Positions 776 through 38,499 of a stretch of DNA of 38,499 nucleotides are shown here, piece by piece. The stretch is from contig JACSRE010000130.1 in the NCBI GenBank assembly GCA_014879945.1, positions 1 through 38,499 on the forward strand, given 5' to 3'. The translations under genes and the position numbers were made by a program. This DNA is from Myxococcus sp. GTDB lineage: Bacteria > Myxococcota > Myxococcia > Myxococcales > Myxococcaceae. The notes beneath the pieces are model-generated. The model saw only the letters and a program-made list of their open reading frames with translations, searched no databases and was not told the origin of the DNA. How positions within the stretch are numbered: the stretch's first letter is position 1; the number at the start of each line of letters is the position of its first letter.

Positions 776-3319
776 ATGGTCCGCGCGGTGGACGCCCTGA
801 TCGAAAAGCCCGAGATCGAGGTCAGGCCTCGACTGCACCACGAGTTCGGCCCGGCGGGGCGCTGGCTCGCACGGCGGTACTTCGAGGCCGTGCGCTTCCC
901 TCAGGGAGCGGTCGACGAGCTCAAGGCCCTTCACCAGAAGGGGCTCGTCGTTCACGTCATGCGCACCACCGCGTGGGTGAACTTCTTGTACCTCCACTGG
1001 GCGATGGTGCGTCGGGGCCTGCCTCCGGTGCGCGCCGTCGTCAACCTGCGCCCGTGGTTCACCAGGCCCTTCACGCTGGCCGCCCAGCGCGGCGACTTCG
1101 ACGTGCGCTTCACCTACGCGCGGCGGCAGGGCGGCTCGGGGCTCATCTTCCTGCGCGAGAGCGCTTTCAACTCGGCGCGAGGAAAAGACGGCGAAGACCC
1201 CTTCCCTGCCCTGGTCGAGATGGCGCGCAAGTCGGACACCCCGGTGTTCCTGGTGCCCGAGCTCTTCGTCTGGGAGAAGTGGCTCCAGAAGATCACCCCC
1301 AGCGTCTTCGACCGCGTCTTCGGCAGCCCCGAGGCGCCCGGCTTTTTGCACTCGGTGGGCGCCTTCTTCCGCAACTACAAGCGCGCGCAGTTCCGGGTGG
1401 GCGACGCGATCGATCTGAACGCCTTCGTGGCGGACCACGCCGGCCAGCCCACCGAGGTCATCGCCCGCAAGGTGCGCAGCACGCTCCACCACCACCTGGC
1501 GCGCGAGACCCGGGCGGTGTTCGGCCCGCCGCGCAAGTCCACCGACCGGCTCATCGACGAGGCCATGCGCGATCGGGTGTTTCAGCAGTCGGTCGCCGAG
1601 ATCTCGAAGGAGCAGAGTAAGAGCGTCGAGGCGCTCAACCGCGCCGCCAAGCGGAGCTTCGCGGCGATCGCGGCGCGCTACAGCCCGACGGTGGTGGGCT
1701 TCACGGCGCCCATCCTCCACTGGGTCTTCAACCGCATCTACGACGGGGTCGAGGTCGACGAGGCGGGGCTCGAGCGCGCGATGAAGGCCGCGTCCGACGC
1801 GCCGGTGGTGTTGACGCCCTCGCACAAGAGCCACGTCGACTACCTGATCATGAGCTACGTGCTCTTTCAGCGCGGCTACACGGTGCCGCTGGTGGCCGCG
1901 GGCGCGAACCTCTCGTTCTTCCCCCTCGGCCCGTTCCTGCGGCGCGGCGGGGCCTTCTTCCTGCGGCGCAGCTTCAAGGGCGACAAGCTCTACACGGCGG
2001 TCTTCAAGGCCTACCTGAAGAAGCTGGTGCACGACGGCATTCACCACGAGTTCTTCCCCGAGGGCGGCCGCTCGAGGACGGGCAAGCTGCTCCCGCCCAA
2101 GCTCGGGCTGTTCACCTGGCTGGTCGACGCGGTGATCGAGGGCGCGCGGAACGAGCTGCTCTTCGTGCCGGTGGCCATCGACTACGAGAAGGTCGTCGAG
2201 GGCGCGAGCTACCGGGCCGAGCTGGCCGGCGGCGAGAAGAAGCCAGAGGATCTCAAGGCCCTGCTCTCGGCGCCGAGCGTGTTGACCGAGAACTACGGCC
2301 GCATTCACCTCACCTTCGACGAGCCGGTGTCGGTGGCGAAGCTGATGAAGGAGCGCGGCATCGACCCGCGCACGGCGACCGACGATCAGAAGAAGGCGCT
2401 CGTTCGCGCGCTGGGCCACCGGGTGATGCACGGCATCTCGCGGGTCTCGACGGTGACGCCGCACGCGCTGCTCGCCTCGGCCCTGCTCGCCCACCGCCGG
2501 CGCGGCATCTCGGTGCGGGAGATCACCGATCGCGTGATGCTGCTGCGCCGCATGGCGGCCGATCTGAACGCGCCCCTGTCGATTCAGCTGAAGGACTCGC
2601 CCTCGTCGCCCACGGTGTTGGGCCCCATCGCCGACGCCATGCGCATGTTCGCCGGCGAGGGCTTCGTGCGAATCGTCGAGGCCCGCGGCGAGCCGATCTA
2701 CCAGGTCGAGGAAGATCGGCGCACCGAGCTGACCTTCTACAAGAACACGCTGATGAACCTGATCGCCGGGCGCACCATCGTGTGCGCGGCGATCCTGTCG
2801 AGCGAGCCGGAGCGCTCCATCGTCGCCATTCGGGAGCGCGCGCTGGTGCTCTCGCGGCTGCTGAAGATGGAGTTCATCTACCCGGTGGGCCAGACCTTCG
2901 AGCACATCTTCGACGCGACGGTGGTGCACCTGACGGGGCTGGGGTTGGTGGTTCGCGGCGAGCACTCGCTCGAGGTGGCGCCCGAGGCCCACGTGCGGCC
3001 GTCGGTGCAGTTCCTCTCGGACCTGCTGCTCGACGTGCTCGAGTCGTACCACCTGGCGGCCCGGCAGATCGCCGACGCCCCCAAAGAGGGCCAGGACAAG
3101 AAGGACTTCATCAAGAAGGCGCTCGAGAACGGCCGCGCCGACTTCCTGGGCGGCACCATCATCTCGGCCGAGGCGGTGTCGAAGTCGAGCCTCGAGAACG
3201 CGCTGACGTACCTGGTGGAGCAGGGCTTCCTCACCGAGCAGAGCAAGCGCCTGGTGCCCGGCAAGCCGGTGGACGATCTGGTGGCCCAGCTGAAGCTGTT
3301 CCTGCCCGAGGTGCGGTGA
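776..3319 (+). CDS. plsB: glycerol-3-phosphate 1-O-acyltransferase PlsB
   Basis: 847 aa from ATG 776. The frame is open back to a GTG at 707, but the extra 23 residues are low-complexity and neither start has a clear ribosome site. PlsB acylates the sn-1 position of glycerol-3-phosphate at the inner membrane, the first step of phospholipid synthesis. All four acyltransferase blocks are present: the HX4D catalytic motif in SHKSHVDYL (H350 and D355), the GGAFFLRRSF block, FFPEGGRSRTGK (the glycerol-phosphate binding block) and the LLFVPVAIDY block. Length is close to E. coli PlsB (about 807 aa), with a catalytic block placed about 40 residues later. It reads into the next small gene with one base between stop and start, so the two are probably co-transcribed. 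A myxobacterial paralogue with a different acyl donor cannot be excluded. Confidence 0.93.
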   Translation: MVRAVDALIEKPEIEVRPRLHHEFGPAGRWLARRYFEAVRFPQGAVDELKALHQKGLVVHVMRTTAWVNFLYLHWAMVRRGLPPVRAVVNLRPWFTRPFTLAAQRGDFDVRFTYARRQGGSGLIFLRESAFNSARGKDGEDPFPALVEMARKSDTPVFLVPELFVWEKWLQKITPSVFDRVFGSPEAPGFLHSVGAFFRNYKRAQFRVGDAIDLNAFVADHAGQPTEVIARKVRSTLHHHLARETRAVFGPPRKSTDRLIDEAMRDRVFQQSVAEISKEQSKSVEALNRAAKRSFAAIAARYSPTVVGFTAPILHWVFNRIYDGVEVDEAGLERAMKAASDAPVVLTPSHKSHVDYLIMSYVLFQRGYTVPLVAAGANLSFFPLGPFLRRGGAFFLRRSFKGDKLYTAVFKAYLKKLVHDGIHHEFFPEGGRSRTGKLLPPKLGLFTWLVDAVIEGARNELLFVPVAIDYEKVVEGASYRAELAGGEKKPEDLKALLSAPSVLTENYGRIHLTFDEPVSVAKLMKERGIDPRTATDDQKKALVRALGHRVMHGISRVSTVTPHALLASALLAHRRRGISVREITDRVMLLRRMAADLNAPLSIQLKDSPSSPTVLGPIADAMRMFAGEGFVRIVEARGEPIYQVEEDRRTELTFYKNTLMNLIAGRTIVCAAILSSEPERSIVAIRERALVLSRLLKMEFIYPVGQTFEHIFDATVVHLTGLGLVVRGEHSLEVAPEAHVRPSVQFLSDLLLDVLESYHLAARQIADAPKEGQDKKDFIKKALENGRADFLGGTIISAEAVSKSSLENALTYLVEQGFLTEQSKRLVPGKPVDDLVAQLKLFLPEVR

Positions 3320-33830: not shown

Positions 33831-35903
33831 TCAAGGCGCGGCGGCGAGGGGGCCTGTCGGAACGGCCTGGTACCGGGGCACGGGGTTTCTGCGCTCGGCG
33901 CAGCCCACGACGCGCTTGCTGCACTTGCCCTTCGCCGAGGAGCCCTCGTCGGGCACGCGCCACTCGAGCGCGACGGCCAGCGATCGCTCCCGCACCTCGG
34001 GGGGCGCCCCCAGCTGCGCCAACGAGAGGGCCTGCACGCGCAGACAGTCGGCGTCTCGGGGGACGAGGCGAATGCCCGCCTGGGCGGCCTCGAGGGCCTC
34101 GGCGTAGCGGCCCACGCTCGCCTCGGCCATCGCGAGCGCCTGCCAGAGCGTGACGTCCTGGGGGGCCAGCTGCGTCGCGCGGCGGTAGGCCTCGGCGGCC
34201 AGGGCCCAGCGCCACACCTGGGCGAAGGTGTCTCCGCGCGCGCGCCAGACCGAGGGGTGATCGCCGAGCACCCGCTGCGCAGCGCTCAGGAGCTTCAGGG
34301 CCTCGTCTGTCTGGCCCCGCTTGCCAGCGATCGAGGCCCGGCCCCACAGCGCCCTCCCCTTCGCCTCAGCGGTGGTGGCGGCCGCCGCGGCGAACCCGAA
34401 CGCCTGCTCGGCCTCTCCGAGGTACTCCTGCAACGCGACGCTCAACGCCAGCCCGCGACGCCACGCGGTGTCGAACGACGCGCGCCCGGCGCCGGTGAGC
34501 GCGACCTGCGTTTCGCCGATGGTGGTGGCGGGGGCGTCTGCGCAGGCGTCGAGGCGGTGGCCGAGCAGCGCCCGGGTGGCGGCGGAGAACGCCTCGCCCC
34601 GCGGCGTGCTGGCCTCGGCGCAGGCGCGGGCATGGAGCTCGGGCAAGCGGGTCCGGTGGGTGATCCGCGCGCGCACCGCGAGGGGAAGGTCGCGCGGCCC
34701 CAGCCCGGCGGGCACCTCGAAGCCCACCCGCACCGCGCGCGCATCGCGGGCCGGCACCGTGTGGTTCCAGACGGCGCTGACGAAGTGGTGCGTCTGGCGC
34801 TCGTGCAGGGGCTCGCCTTCGAGCGACACCACCTCGGCGCGCAGCTCGTGCTCGTCTGACGCCGCGAGCCGTCGCCCCTCCTTCGTGAGCAGCTCGACCT
34901 CGAGGCGCGTGCCCTGGTTGTCGAGCACGCTGCCCGGGAAGCGGTGCCCGACGCGCTCGTTGAAGACGACCACGTCGACCTCGAAGGCCTCACCGGCCTT
35001 CGGCGAGGCGAGCGAGGCCGCAGGGAGCCAGGGGCCGCCGCCGACCCGCGCCGAGGCCACCTCGACGGTGACGGAGCCCTCGAGGAACTCGCGCACCCGG
35101 CGCAGCGTCTCGGCGTCGCCGCGCATGGCGGCCAGCGCGGTGTGCGAGCCCAGGAAGCGGTGCGAGGTGATCTGGCCCTTCTTCGCGGCCACGTCCCCCA
35201 GCACCGCGGGCGCCTTCGTCATGTGGCACCCGCGACAGTCCTGCGGCTTCACGGCGTCGGGGCGCTCACCTCGCGAGCCGTTCCACGCCGACTTCTGCCA
35301 GGCGCCGAAGTCATCCATGCCGAAGAAGGCGGCCTGGTTTCCGGTCGCGGCGCTGAGGAACGCGCGGTGGCAGCTGCCGCACAGCTCAGCGGTGCGCAGG
35401 GCCGGGCTGGCGACGCGGCGCTTGTGGTTGTCCACGGTGGCGTCTTCGAGCTCCTCGGGCAGCGCCTGATCGGAGCGCAAGGTGAGGCTGCCGTTCCCGT
35501 CGACGGTGGCGTGGGTCGCGCTGTGACAGGTGGTGCAGCTGACGCCGGCGTGGGCGCGCGGGTCGTCGGGCGCGATCGGCTGGTCCATCGCGCCGGCGGT
35601 GAGCAACGCCAGATCGTGACACCCGGCGCACATGCGGCTGGCCGCGAAGCCCACCTCGCTGCGCAGGCGCTCGACCGAGACGCGGTACAGCGGGTTGCTG
35701 AACGAGGCGAGCGAGTGCGCGCTCGTTCTCCACTGCGCCGCGATGTCGGTGTGGCAGCTGCCACACACCTTCGCGTCATCGAGGTTGGCTGACGGGGCGT
35801 GCCCCTGCCGATCCTGCACCAGCTGACCCGGCGCCCAGATCGACCGATCGGCCGGGAGCACCGGCTCGGCGGCGACGAACATGGCGACGAGGAGGCTCAG
35901 CAT
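33831..35903 (-). CDS. pentaheme cytochrome c with C-terminal TPR-like region
   Basis: 690 aa. A short signal sequence (MLSLLVAMFVAAEP) suggests export. Five CXXCH heme sites lie at C47-H51 (CGSCH), C92-H96 (CAGCH), C123-H127 (CTTCH), C175-H179 (CGSCH) and C223-H227 (CRGCH). Spacing and the intervening His residues resemble cytochrome c554-type domains that bind hemes in close packing. Residues about 300-430 are beta-rich. The final 200 residues are Ala/Leu-rich helices with TPR character (ALKLLSAAQRVLGDHPSVWRARGDTFAQVWRWALAAEAYRRAT). A periplasmic electron-transfer or nitrogen-oxide role is possible, but the substrate is unknown. It lies just downstream of the DUF2330 genes. Confidence 0.85.
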   Translation of the reverse strand: MLSLLVAMFVAAEPVLPADRSIWAPGQLVQDRQGHAPSANLDDAKVCGSCHTDIAAQWRTSAHSLASFSNPLYRVSVERLRSEVGFAASRMCAGCHDLALLTAGAMDQPIAPDDPRAHAGVSCTTCHSATHATVDGNGSLTLRSDQALPEELEDATVDNHKRRVASPALRTAELCGSCHRAFLSAATGNQAAFFGMDDFGAWQKSAWNGSRGERPDAVKPQDCRGCHMTKAPAVLGDVAAKKGQITSHRFLGSHTALAAMRGDAETLRRVREFLEGSVTVEVASARVGGGPWLPAASLASPKAGEAFEVDVVVFNERVGHRFPGSVLDNQGTRLEVELLTKEGRRLAASDEHELRAEVVSLEGEPLHERQTHHFVSAVWNHTVPARDARAVRVGFEVPAGLGPRDLPLAVRARITHRTRLPELHARACAEASTPRGEAFSAATRALLGHRLDACADAPATTIGETQVALTGAGRASFDTAWRRGLALSVALQEYLGEAEQAFGFAAAAATTAEAKGRALWGRASIAGKRGQTDEALKLLSAAQRVLGDHPSVWRARGDTFAQVWRWALAAEAYRRATQLAPQDVTLWQALAMAEASVGRYAEALEAAQAGIRLVPRDADCLRVQALSLAQLGAPPEVRERSLAVALEWRVPDEGSSAKGKCSKRVVGCAERRNPVPRYQAVPTGPLAAAP

Positions 35904-35907
35904 GGCG

Positions 35908-37431
35908 TCACCGCTTCACGAGGTTGAGGGGTTGCCCGGCCCGCTCCTTCTTTCCGCGCACGCCCAATTCGGGCACCGGGCTCTCGGCGAAGGCGCCCAG
36001 GTCTTTCCCGCGAGGCGCGAAGGCCGTGTCTTGCGCTGCCAGCGGCGGCGCCGAGCCCCCATTCGGAGGGCCGCCCCAGCGCCCCCGGATCGGGTTCTTG
36101 CAGGCGATCGGGCCCGTCCACGGGTAGCGAATCGCGTAGCGGCCCTGAAACTGGTTTCGGCCCGACGGCACCGAGCCCTGCTCGAGCGCGGTGCCGTTGG
36201 TGAGGAACTCCCGGCCTCCGGCGATGGGCGGCGCGGCCCTGAAGACCAGATCCTCCCCCAGCGACGTCTTGTCGTAGCGCGCGTGGAGGCGCGTCAACAC
36301 GAAGCCCCAGCCCCCCTGAGCGACTCGGTGGCGTTGACGAACCCGCTGCTGAATCACGTCGAGGTGCTGCGTCACCAGCTGCTGATCCTGCGCGTCCAGC
36401 TTGTCCAGGTTCTTCACCTCGATCTCGGGCGCGACGAAGCTCGCGCTGTCGAGCACGTCGAGGCCCAGCACGGTGAGATCGGCCTCGTCGAGCGCGGGGA
36501 TCGGGCAGGGATCGCAGGTGTTCGAGTCCCACGCGTACTCGGTGACGACGGTGTTGGCGCGCCTGGCCAACGTCTTGTCGAAGAGCGACGCATAGAAGGG
36601 CCCGAACTCGTTCTTGGCGCTGGGCACCAGGTCGAGGTTGGTGGGGATGGTGGTGTTCGCGTAGTTCGCGGCCTCGTAGCGCTGGTTGCGCGCGAGCACG
36701 TGCACGATCAGGTCCTGCTTGTCCTTCGCGTTGATGAGCCCCAGGCGCACCGGGAGCTCGAACTTCTCGGAGTCGTAGTGAAAGCGCAGCGGCGAGAGCC
36801 GGGCCTGCCCATCGGCGAAGGTGACCTTCCCGGCGTTCACCCGCGCGACGAAGAACTTCATGCCCTGCTGAATGTACGGGCGGAACAGCGGCTCCGCGCC
36901 CGAGGGGATCTTGTACTTGCTGTCCTTGAGGTAGCGCTCGAGGCCGAGGGCGTCTTTCGCCGAGAGGATGACGATCTCGTACTCGCCGACCTCGAACTTC
37001 GCCTCGATCTTGACGCCGTAGTCGCGGCCCAGCGCGAAGGCGCCGTCGTCTTCGGGCGCCATCATCGACTTCATCGACAACCGCTTGCGCTCGTACTTGC
37101 GCTCGGGCTCGCTGTAGCAGGGGTCTTGCTCCCAGTACTCGACCAGGCGCGGCGCCGAGAGCTTGTCCACCTTGTCGAAGATCGCCTTGTTGAGCGTCTT
37201 CACGTTCTCTTTTTGCAGCACCACCGGCACGGGGACCACCATGGCGAAGTCTTCAGGCGGGCCCTGGTAGTTGTTCTGCATCGACAGCACGGTGCGGGTG
37301 CCGTTGCGCATCAGCACCACCTGCGTGGCGTTGTTGAACAGCTCGGCGCCGCCGCCCGAGACGTAGAAGCCACAGAAGGCCGAGGCCGAGGACGACAGCA
37401 ACGCGACGGCGCCCGAGAGCAGCGTCTTCAT
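35908..37431 (-). CDS. DUF2330-domain secreted protein
   Basis: 507 aa from ATG 37431. A signal peptide (MKTLLSGAVALLSSSASA) precedes FCGFYVSGGG, the start of the DUF2330 domain, with Cys20 near the cut site. Conserved parts include QNNYQGPPEDFAMVVPVPV, RPYIQQGMKFFVARVN and TEYAWDSNTCDPCPIP, plus a late IACKNPIRGRWGG. The cysteine pairs (C-x-x-C in NTCDPC) fit an oxidising, exported protein. DUF2330 proteins have no known activity. It is followed by the pentaheme cytochrome gene with four bases between, and preceded by a close paralogue 11 bases away. These look like a tandem duplication. Confidence 0.85.
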   Translation of the reverse strand: MKTLLSGAVALLSSSASAFCGFYVSGGGAELFNNATQVVLMRNGTRTVLSMQNNYQGPPEDFAMVVPVPVVLQKENVKTLNKAIFDKVDKLSAPRLVEYWEQDPCYSEPERKYERKRLSMKSMMAPEDDGAFALGRDYGVKIEAKFEVGEYEIVILSAKDALGLERYLKDSKYKIPSGAEPLFRPYIQQGMKFFVARVNAGKVTFADGQARLSPLRFHYDSEKFELPVRLGLINAKDKQDLIVHVLARNQRYEAANYANTTIPTNLDLVPSAKNEFGPFYASLFDKTLARRANTVVTEYAWDSNTCDPCPIPALDEADLTVLGLDVLDSASFVAPEIEVKNLDKLDAQDQQLVTQHLDVIQQRVRQRHRVAQGGWGFVLTRLHARYDKTSLGEDLVFRAAPPIAGGREFLTNGTALEQGSVPSGRNQFQGRYAIRYPWTGPIACKNPIRGRWGGPPNGGSAPPLAAQDTAFAPRGKDLGAFAESPVPELGVRGKKERAGQPLNLVKR

Positions 37432-37442
37432 GATCGAGGTCC

Positions 37443-38480
37443 TCACTTCACGTTCACCGGGGTGCCGGCGGCCTTCTTCCGGCCCCTGACGCCCAGCTCG
37501 GCGACCGGGCTCTCGACGAAGGTGCCGAGGTCCTTGTTGCGCGGCACGTTCGCGGTGCTCGGCAGCGCCTCGGGCCGCGCGCGCCCACCAGCGGGGTTGG
37601 CGCCCCAGCGACCGCGCACCGGGTTCGCGCAGCTGATCTCTTGGGCCCACGGGTACCGAATGGCGAAGCGCCCCTGGAACTGGTTGTTGCCGAACGGCAC
37701 CGCGCCCTGCTCCAGCGTGGCGCCGTTGGTCAGGAACTCGCGGCCTCCCGCGATGGGCGGCGCGGCGCGGAACACGAGATCGTCGCCGAGCGACTTCTTG
37801 TCGTAGCGGGCGTGCAGGCGCGTCACCACGAAGCCGCGCCAGTTCAGGCCGCGCGTCTGGCGCATCAGGCTCTGCTGCTTGATGTTGTTCACCGCCTGCG
37901 ACACGTACTGCTGCTCCTGCGCGGGCAGCTCGGCGAGGTTCTTCACCTCGATGTTCGGCTCCATGGCCGCGACCGAAGCGCCGTCGATCACGTCGAGGCC
38001 GAACGCGAGCAGCTCGCCCGCAGCCAGCGCCGGCGTCGGGCACGGGTCGCACGTGTTGGCGTCCCACGCGTACTCGGTGACGACCGCCCCGCCCGCCTTC
38101 GCCTGCGTCTTGTCGAAGAGCGACGCGTAGAACGGGCCGAACTCGTTCTTGGTGCTCGGCACCAGATCGATGTTGGTGGGGATGGTGACGTTCGGCTTGT
38201 TGGCGACCTCGTAGCGCTGGCCCCGCGCCAGCACGTGAACGATCAGATCCTGCTTGTCCTTCGCGTTGATGAGGCCGAGCCGCACGGGCAGCTCGAACTT
38301 CTCGGAGTCGTAGAAGAAGCGCAGCGGCGAGAGCGTGGCCTGGCCGTCCTTGAAGGCGACCTTCTTCGCGTTCACCCGCGCGACGAAGAACTTCATGCCC
38401 TGCTGAATGTAGGGGCGGAAGAGCGGCTCGGCGCCCGAGGGAATGTTGTAGCCGTTCTTCTTGAGCCAGCGCTCCAGGCC
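37443..38480 (-). CDS. DUF2330-domain protein, 5' end cut by contig end
   Basis: 345 residues remain; the N-terminal about 162 residues, including the signal peptide, are missing beyond the contig end. It aligns with the adjacent DUF2330 protein along its whole length (GAEPLFRPYIQQGMKFF, LGLINAKDKQDLIVHVLAR, AKNEFGPFYASLFDKT-like parts, TEYAWDANTCDPCPTP, FRAAPPIAGGREFLTNG). Both end in the shared 'ESPV-ELGVRG-KK' tail. A tandem duplication is clear. The frame could seem to start at 38495 with MYKRQ, but those five codons are sequencing adapter. Confidence 0.88.
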   Translation of the reverse strand, partial: GLERWLKKNGYNIPSGAEPLFRPYIQQGMKFFVARVNAKKVAFKDGQATLSPLRFFYDSEKFELPVRLGLINAKDKQDLIVHVLARGQRYEVANKPNVTIPTNIDLVPSTKNEFGPFYASLFDKTQAKAGGAVVTEYAWDANTCDPCPTPALAAGELLAFGLDVIDGASVAAMEPNIEVKNLAELPAQEQQYVSQAVNNIKQQSLMRQTRGLNWRGFVVTRLHARYDKKSLGDDLVFRAAPPIAGGREFLTNGATLEQGAVPFGNNQFQGRFAIRYPWAQEISCANPVRGRWGANPAGGRARPEALPSTANVPRNKDLGTFVESPVAELGVRGRKKAAGTPVNVK

Positions 38481-38499
38481 CTGTCTCTTATACACATCT
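38481..38499. other. Tn5/Nextera mosaic-end adapter sequence (artefact)
   Basis: CTGTCTCTTATACACATCT is the exact 19-base mosaic end used by tagmentation library kits, in reverse complement. It lies at the extreme contig end, in place of the next codons of the DUF2330 gene. It is library adapter left in the assembly. In the minus reading it gives the well-known false N-terminus MYKRQ. Confidence 0.97.

Follow-up and report, generated by a model that had tools for sequence, protein, structure and literature searches.

INTRODUCTION

The nearest described counterpart of the contig end reported here is the read-through of Nextera/Illumina adaptors in draft assemblies. PMC3046479 prints CTGTCTCTTATACACATCT as the reverse complement of the mosaic end (ME) used in transposase-made libraries, and PMC5240201 gives adaptor lengths of 14 and 15 bases as well as a symmetry from base 1 to base 9 for Nextera Tn5. 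The window (the whole stretch of DNA analysed, 38,499 nucleotides) is the entire contig C429 of a 448-contig, 7.7 Mb genome, and its end resembles such read-through in the exact ME, the terminal position and outward orientation of that ME, the i5/i7 continuation at sister ends and the Tn5 bias at the junctions, with no difference seen. We assign a probability of about 0.985 to the reading of this contig end as an artefact of adaptor read-through, and no evidence against it was found. The contig-end observation is confirmed as real, and the feature is a technical artefact without biological novelty.

RESULTS

The contig terminus and the apparent MYKRQ start

Bases 38481–38499 (CTGTCTCTTATACACATCT; feature on the minus strand) are identical, with 0 mismatches, to the 19-base Tn5 ME of Nextera libraries, a synthetic, non-genomic adaptor. 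This is the sole match in the window (both strands, up to 3 mismatches); ME is present on C429 at the right end only. The earlier note had identified the last 19 bases as the Nextera/Tn5 mosaic end, and the exact 19/19 match together with its absence from all 100 dinucleotide shuffles bears this out; the real sequence of contig C429 stops at 38480. The minus-strand frame at 37443–38498 is open up to the contig edge, and its first six codons, past one spare base, read D V Y K R Q and are adaptor. Within them, GTG TAT AAG AGA CAG (38495–38481, minus strand) lies wholly in the adaptor and gives M(V)YKRQ, the GTG at 38495–38493 being the apparent start of MYKRQ. MYKRQ is translated adaptor, and the feature at 38481–38495 (minus strand), defined from sequence and translation, is a false start consisting of GTG and the adaptor-coded YKRQ. 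The native frame reads GLERW from 38480 and ends with the stop TGA at 37445–37443; because the last 19 letters are adaptor, a gene cut at the contig end appears to begin with five spurious residues.

The same adaptor at other contig ends of the genome

A search of the same genome that allowed 2 mismatches returns 56 copies of ME (the C429 end and 55 other full copies at contig ends), all 56 with 0 mismatches, and the reversed ME pattern, used as a control, gives 0 matches in this genome. On inspection of all 56 ends, every copy points outward and is no more than 35 bases away from a contig end. A 12-base search reveals a 57th end, C351, that carries 13 bases of ME, which brings the adaptor-bearing contig ends to at least 57 out of 896 in this genome (56 full, 1 partial).

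The sequence outside ME is informative as to its source. At 24 of the 56 ends there is no tail, as at the C429 end; 23 carry i5, 8 carry i7 and 1 carries i5 with an extra base. Over the compared part, 31 of the 32 tails show no deviation from i5 or i7 and one has a single inserted base; 27 tails are at least 8 bases long, and the remaining 5, of only 1–5 bases, are too short for identification alone. A tail of exactly 18 bases occurs at 14 of the 56 ends. The longest i5 tails run into index and P5-like bases. At the G000 contig ends with the longest tails (e.g. L023, L296) the i5-side bases CGGAGAGA lead into P5-like sequence, and TAG is appended to one of the i7 tails in G000; library index bases are thus readable from the assembly.

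The genomic bases at the junctions carry a pattern of their own. Counting inward from ME, 32 of the 56 junctions have G at base 1, 45 have a pyrimidine at base 4 and 30 have C at base 9, against a background of A 0.145, C 0.367, G 0.349 and T 0.139. Bases 1–4 mirror bases 9–6 as reverse complements, symmetric about base 5, which is the 9-base target bias of Tn5. The correlation for this mirror symmetry is r = 0.82 in the genome itself, where four control offsets give −0.07 to 0.45; at 260 public junctions among the matches listed it is r = 0.92, with −0.41 to 0.52 at the control offsets. Single-position chi-square tests for the genome itself are modest, with the best p of 0.0001 at base 4 and no significance at bases 2, 3 and 7.

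These ends also bear on the reading in which a real Tn5-type or engineered, ME-bounded transposon sits within the gene and the contig ends at the transposon edge. According to PMC3046479 the 19-base ME suffices as a transposon end for hyperactive Tn5, although the same paper gives wild-type Tn5 an outside and an inside end, of which ME is a hyperactive derivative. No reciprocal 9-mer, as would be expected of the two flanks of one insertion, is common to any two of the 56 junctions, none of the 56 copies lies more than 35 bases from a contig end, and 32 of them continue into i5/i7 library adaptor rather than into a transposon body. On the missing reciprocal 9-mers and the library origin of the tails we reject a transposon insertion, which we regard as very unlikely. 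A repeat was weighed as a possible cause of the contig break as well: between the final 300 genomic bases and the copies examined, exact identity extends over 44 bases at most, a length at which an assembly could be broken at small k-mer sizes only.

Relatives across the junction

Searches of six same-genus genomes give best matches to the truncated gene that are 76–89% identical along the full 345 residues in five of them and 68% identical in the sixth, G001. In the family alignment 14 of 19 rows (query apart) cover the junction, and all 14 are uninterrupted there, with LSA(E/K/Q)DA(L/M)-GL(E/D); the remaining 5 rows begin downstream of the junction. Rows of sufficient length show a leader-like N-terminus ∼160 residues upstream of it. 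Three same-genus orthologues (L311, L312, L313) show no difference over the first 30 residues past the junction, and at the DNA level each of the three relatives examined (G002, G004, G006) aligns as far as base 38480. This identity and this alignment refute, at the C429 locus, the view that the adaptor is real but that the bases directly before it are chimeric as well; adaptor copies deep inside contigs elsewhere (L100, L106) speak for such joins, but here we consider one extremely improbable. The least likely proposal takes the 19 bases for native coding sequence and MYKRQ for the true start of the gene; it draws on a frame that is open across them and contains GTG. Yet the relatives read through the junction to their leader-like N-termini, and the exact 19-mer, which stands at 55 further contig ends in this genome, is found in 0 of 59 relatives (search of 60 genomes including this one). 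These data refute such a start, and its likelihood is negligible. The claim of the earlier note that adapter at the contig end creates a false start is supported by the 56 same-genome copies, the relatives and the Tn5 target bias alike.

The truncated DUF2330 gene and its surroundings

The genuine part of the gene, at 37443–38480 on the minus strand, encodes the 345-residue C-terminal part of a DUF2330 protein that is 5′-truncated by the contig end, as indicated by Pfam (PF10092) and by the orthologues. It matches PF10092 with an E-value of 2.9e-29 and 102.6 bits, above the gathering score of 24.7. The cut gene resembles the family over profile positions 132–278 of 279, whereas the N-terminal part of DUF2330 is absent because the contig ends. 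An intact tandem paralogue of 507 residues lies at 35908–37431 on the minus strand (PF10092, E 1.2e-59, profile 3–279 of 279) and probably shows the form of the missing N-terminus. Adjoining the DUF2330 genes, at 33831–35903, is a gene whose product matches Cytochrome_C554 and Cytochrome_C7 and has TPR repeats at its C-terminal end.

The length of the missing part may be estimated by counting from the closest Met that precedes AFCGFYV. By this rule, the five same-genus orthologues have 163, 163, 161, 165 and 163 residues upstream of the junction, and the paralogue at 35908–37431 has 162 before the equivalent position. Other family copies give 160, 162 and 162, and also 150, 151 and 152, the latter because a nearer Met sits inside the leader; one row gave no Met by this rule. 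The real gene probably lacks about 160–165 N-terminal residues on C429, and the previously proposed figure of ∼162 is sound as an estimate, given 162 in the paralogue and 161–165 in the five orthologues.

Two genes of the DUF2330 tandem array lie within 35908–38480, and three are present in the relatives G002, G004, G005 and G006; further DUF2330 matches in the same genome are on C390, C361, C353 and C37. Contig C390, whose first bases fall within another DUF2330 copy, is alignable with the same region in three relatives, shortly past the window's end. In alignment coordinates, the distance from base 38480 to base 1 of C390 is 981 bases (G004), 984 bases (G002) and 974 bases (G006). From these aligned gap sizes, C429 and C390 are probably neighbours in a three-gene tandem array, the middle gene of which would be split by the gap, and synteny likewise suggests that the missing gene part probably lies in this gap of about 974–984 bases before C390. 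The genome search did not find a full ME at the C390 start.

The adaptor in public collections

Among the matches listed, ME is no more than 100 bases from a contig end in 121 of 133 genome-contig cases and in 123 of 127 viral-contig cases. Those 121 genome-contig ends comprise 59 with i5, 40 with i7, 20 without a tail and 2 with another tail, and the 123 viral-contig ends comprise 51 with i5, 62 with i7, 3 with approximate tails, 5 without a tail and 2 with another tail. The 12 other listed genome-contig matches either reach a run of N within 1–4 bases (7), continue into i5/i7 (4) or do neither (1, L100). The remaining 4 listed viral matches are each followed by the start of i5 or i7; in two of these, just 5 or 11 bases are stored. 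Seven ‘Doro1’ actinomycete scaffolds (L038, L070, L091, L107, L123, L136, L147) carry ME beside internal N runs, and the adaptor thus sits inside scaffolds too. L100 (CAJXPN010000583.1) has an exact ME at 3073–3091, more than 1 kb inside the contig and without i5/i7, and is perhaps a chimeric join. In L066 and L119, ME leads into CTGA..., which fits neither i5 nor i7 and may represent an older transposase-library adaptor. The 33-base ME+i5 string occurs in 26 of 50,697 phage records, a count that treats the GenBank and RefSeq versions of a genome as separate records. The 34-base ME+i7 string occurs in 0 of 20,395 records of complete Escherichia coli assemblies; each string was tried in its own collection only.

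DISCUSSION

Under the preferred reading, adaptor read-through, the sequence pattern shows that, during Nextera preparation, Tn5 attached the ME adaptor to the genomic DNA at what is now base 38480. Because the insert was presumably shorter than the read, the read would have run into ME, and the adaptor would have been left untrimmed and kept by the assembler. That the contig stops exactly at the ME end is probably due to the following base, which is G in i5 but C in i7 and would fork the assembly graph.

The same arrangement has consequences for predicted proteins. At 35 of the 56 full-copy ends, an inward open frame of at least 100 residues runs from a start codon in the adaptor (an open-frame count judged on about 700 bases per end); 28 of these ends have it via GTG/MYKRQ and 17 via ATG/MCIRD, some via both. 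As long chance frames are common at about 70% G+C, 35 of 56 is an upper bound on false proteins. Annotation pipelines do produce adaptor-coded false starts, as seen in deposited phage records: in LR597643.1 (L392) the annotated CDS VUF54202.1 starts in the adaptor with MCIRD.... In LR597653.1 (L393) the CDS VUF54226.1 runs through the adaptor, in MK373775.1 (L389) an annotated tail-fibre CDS ends inside it, and annotated features also cover adaptor in LR597636.1, LR595870.1 and MZ092003.1; a CDS starting with MYKRQ itself was found in none of the six phage records examined. Among the papers listed for MYKRQ and MCIRD, none was recognisable as describing either peptide as adaptor contamination; some of them, by their titles, deal with in vitro transposition or insertion mutagenesis. 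PMC4658143 quotes a guppy oestrogen-receptor variant as beginning MYKRQN, which matches the adaptor translation and may do so by coincidence.

On balance, we lean towards the view that adaptor-coded N-termini (MYKRQ..., MCIRD...) and C-termini have spread unflagged in public bacterial and phage protein sets. If this is true, such termini could pass for real start sites or for conserved leader motifs. The relevance of the finding is one of quality control only, and such starts and truncations are not to be read as biology.
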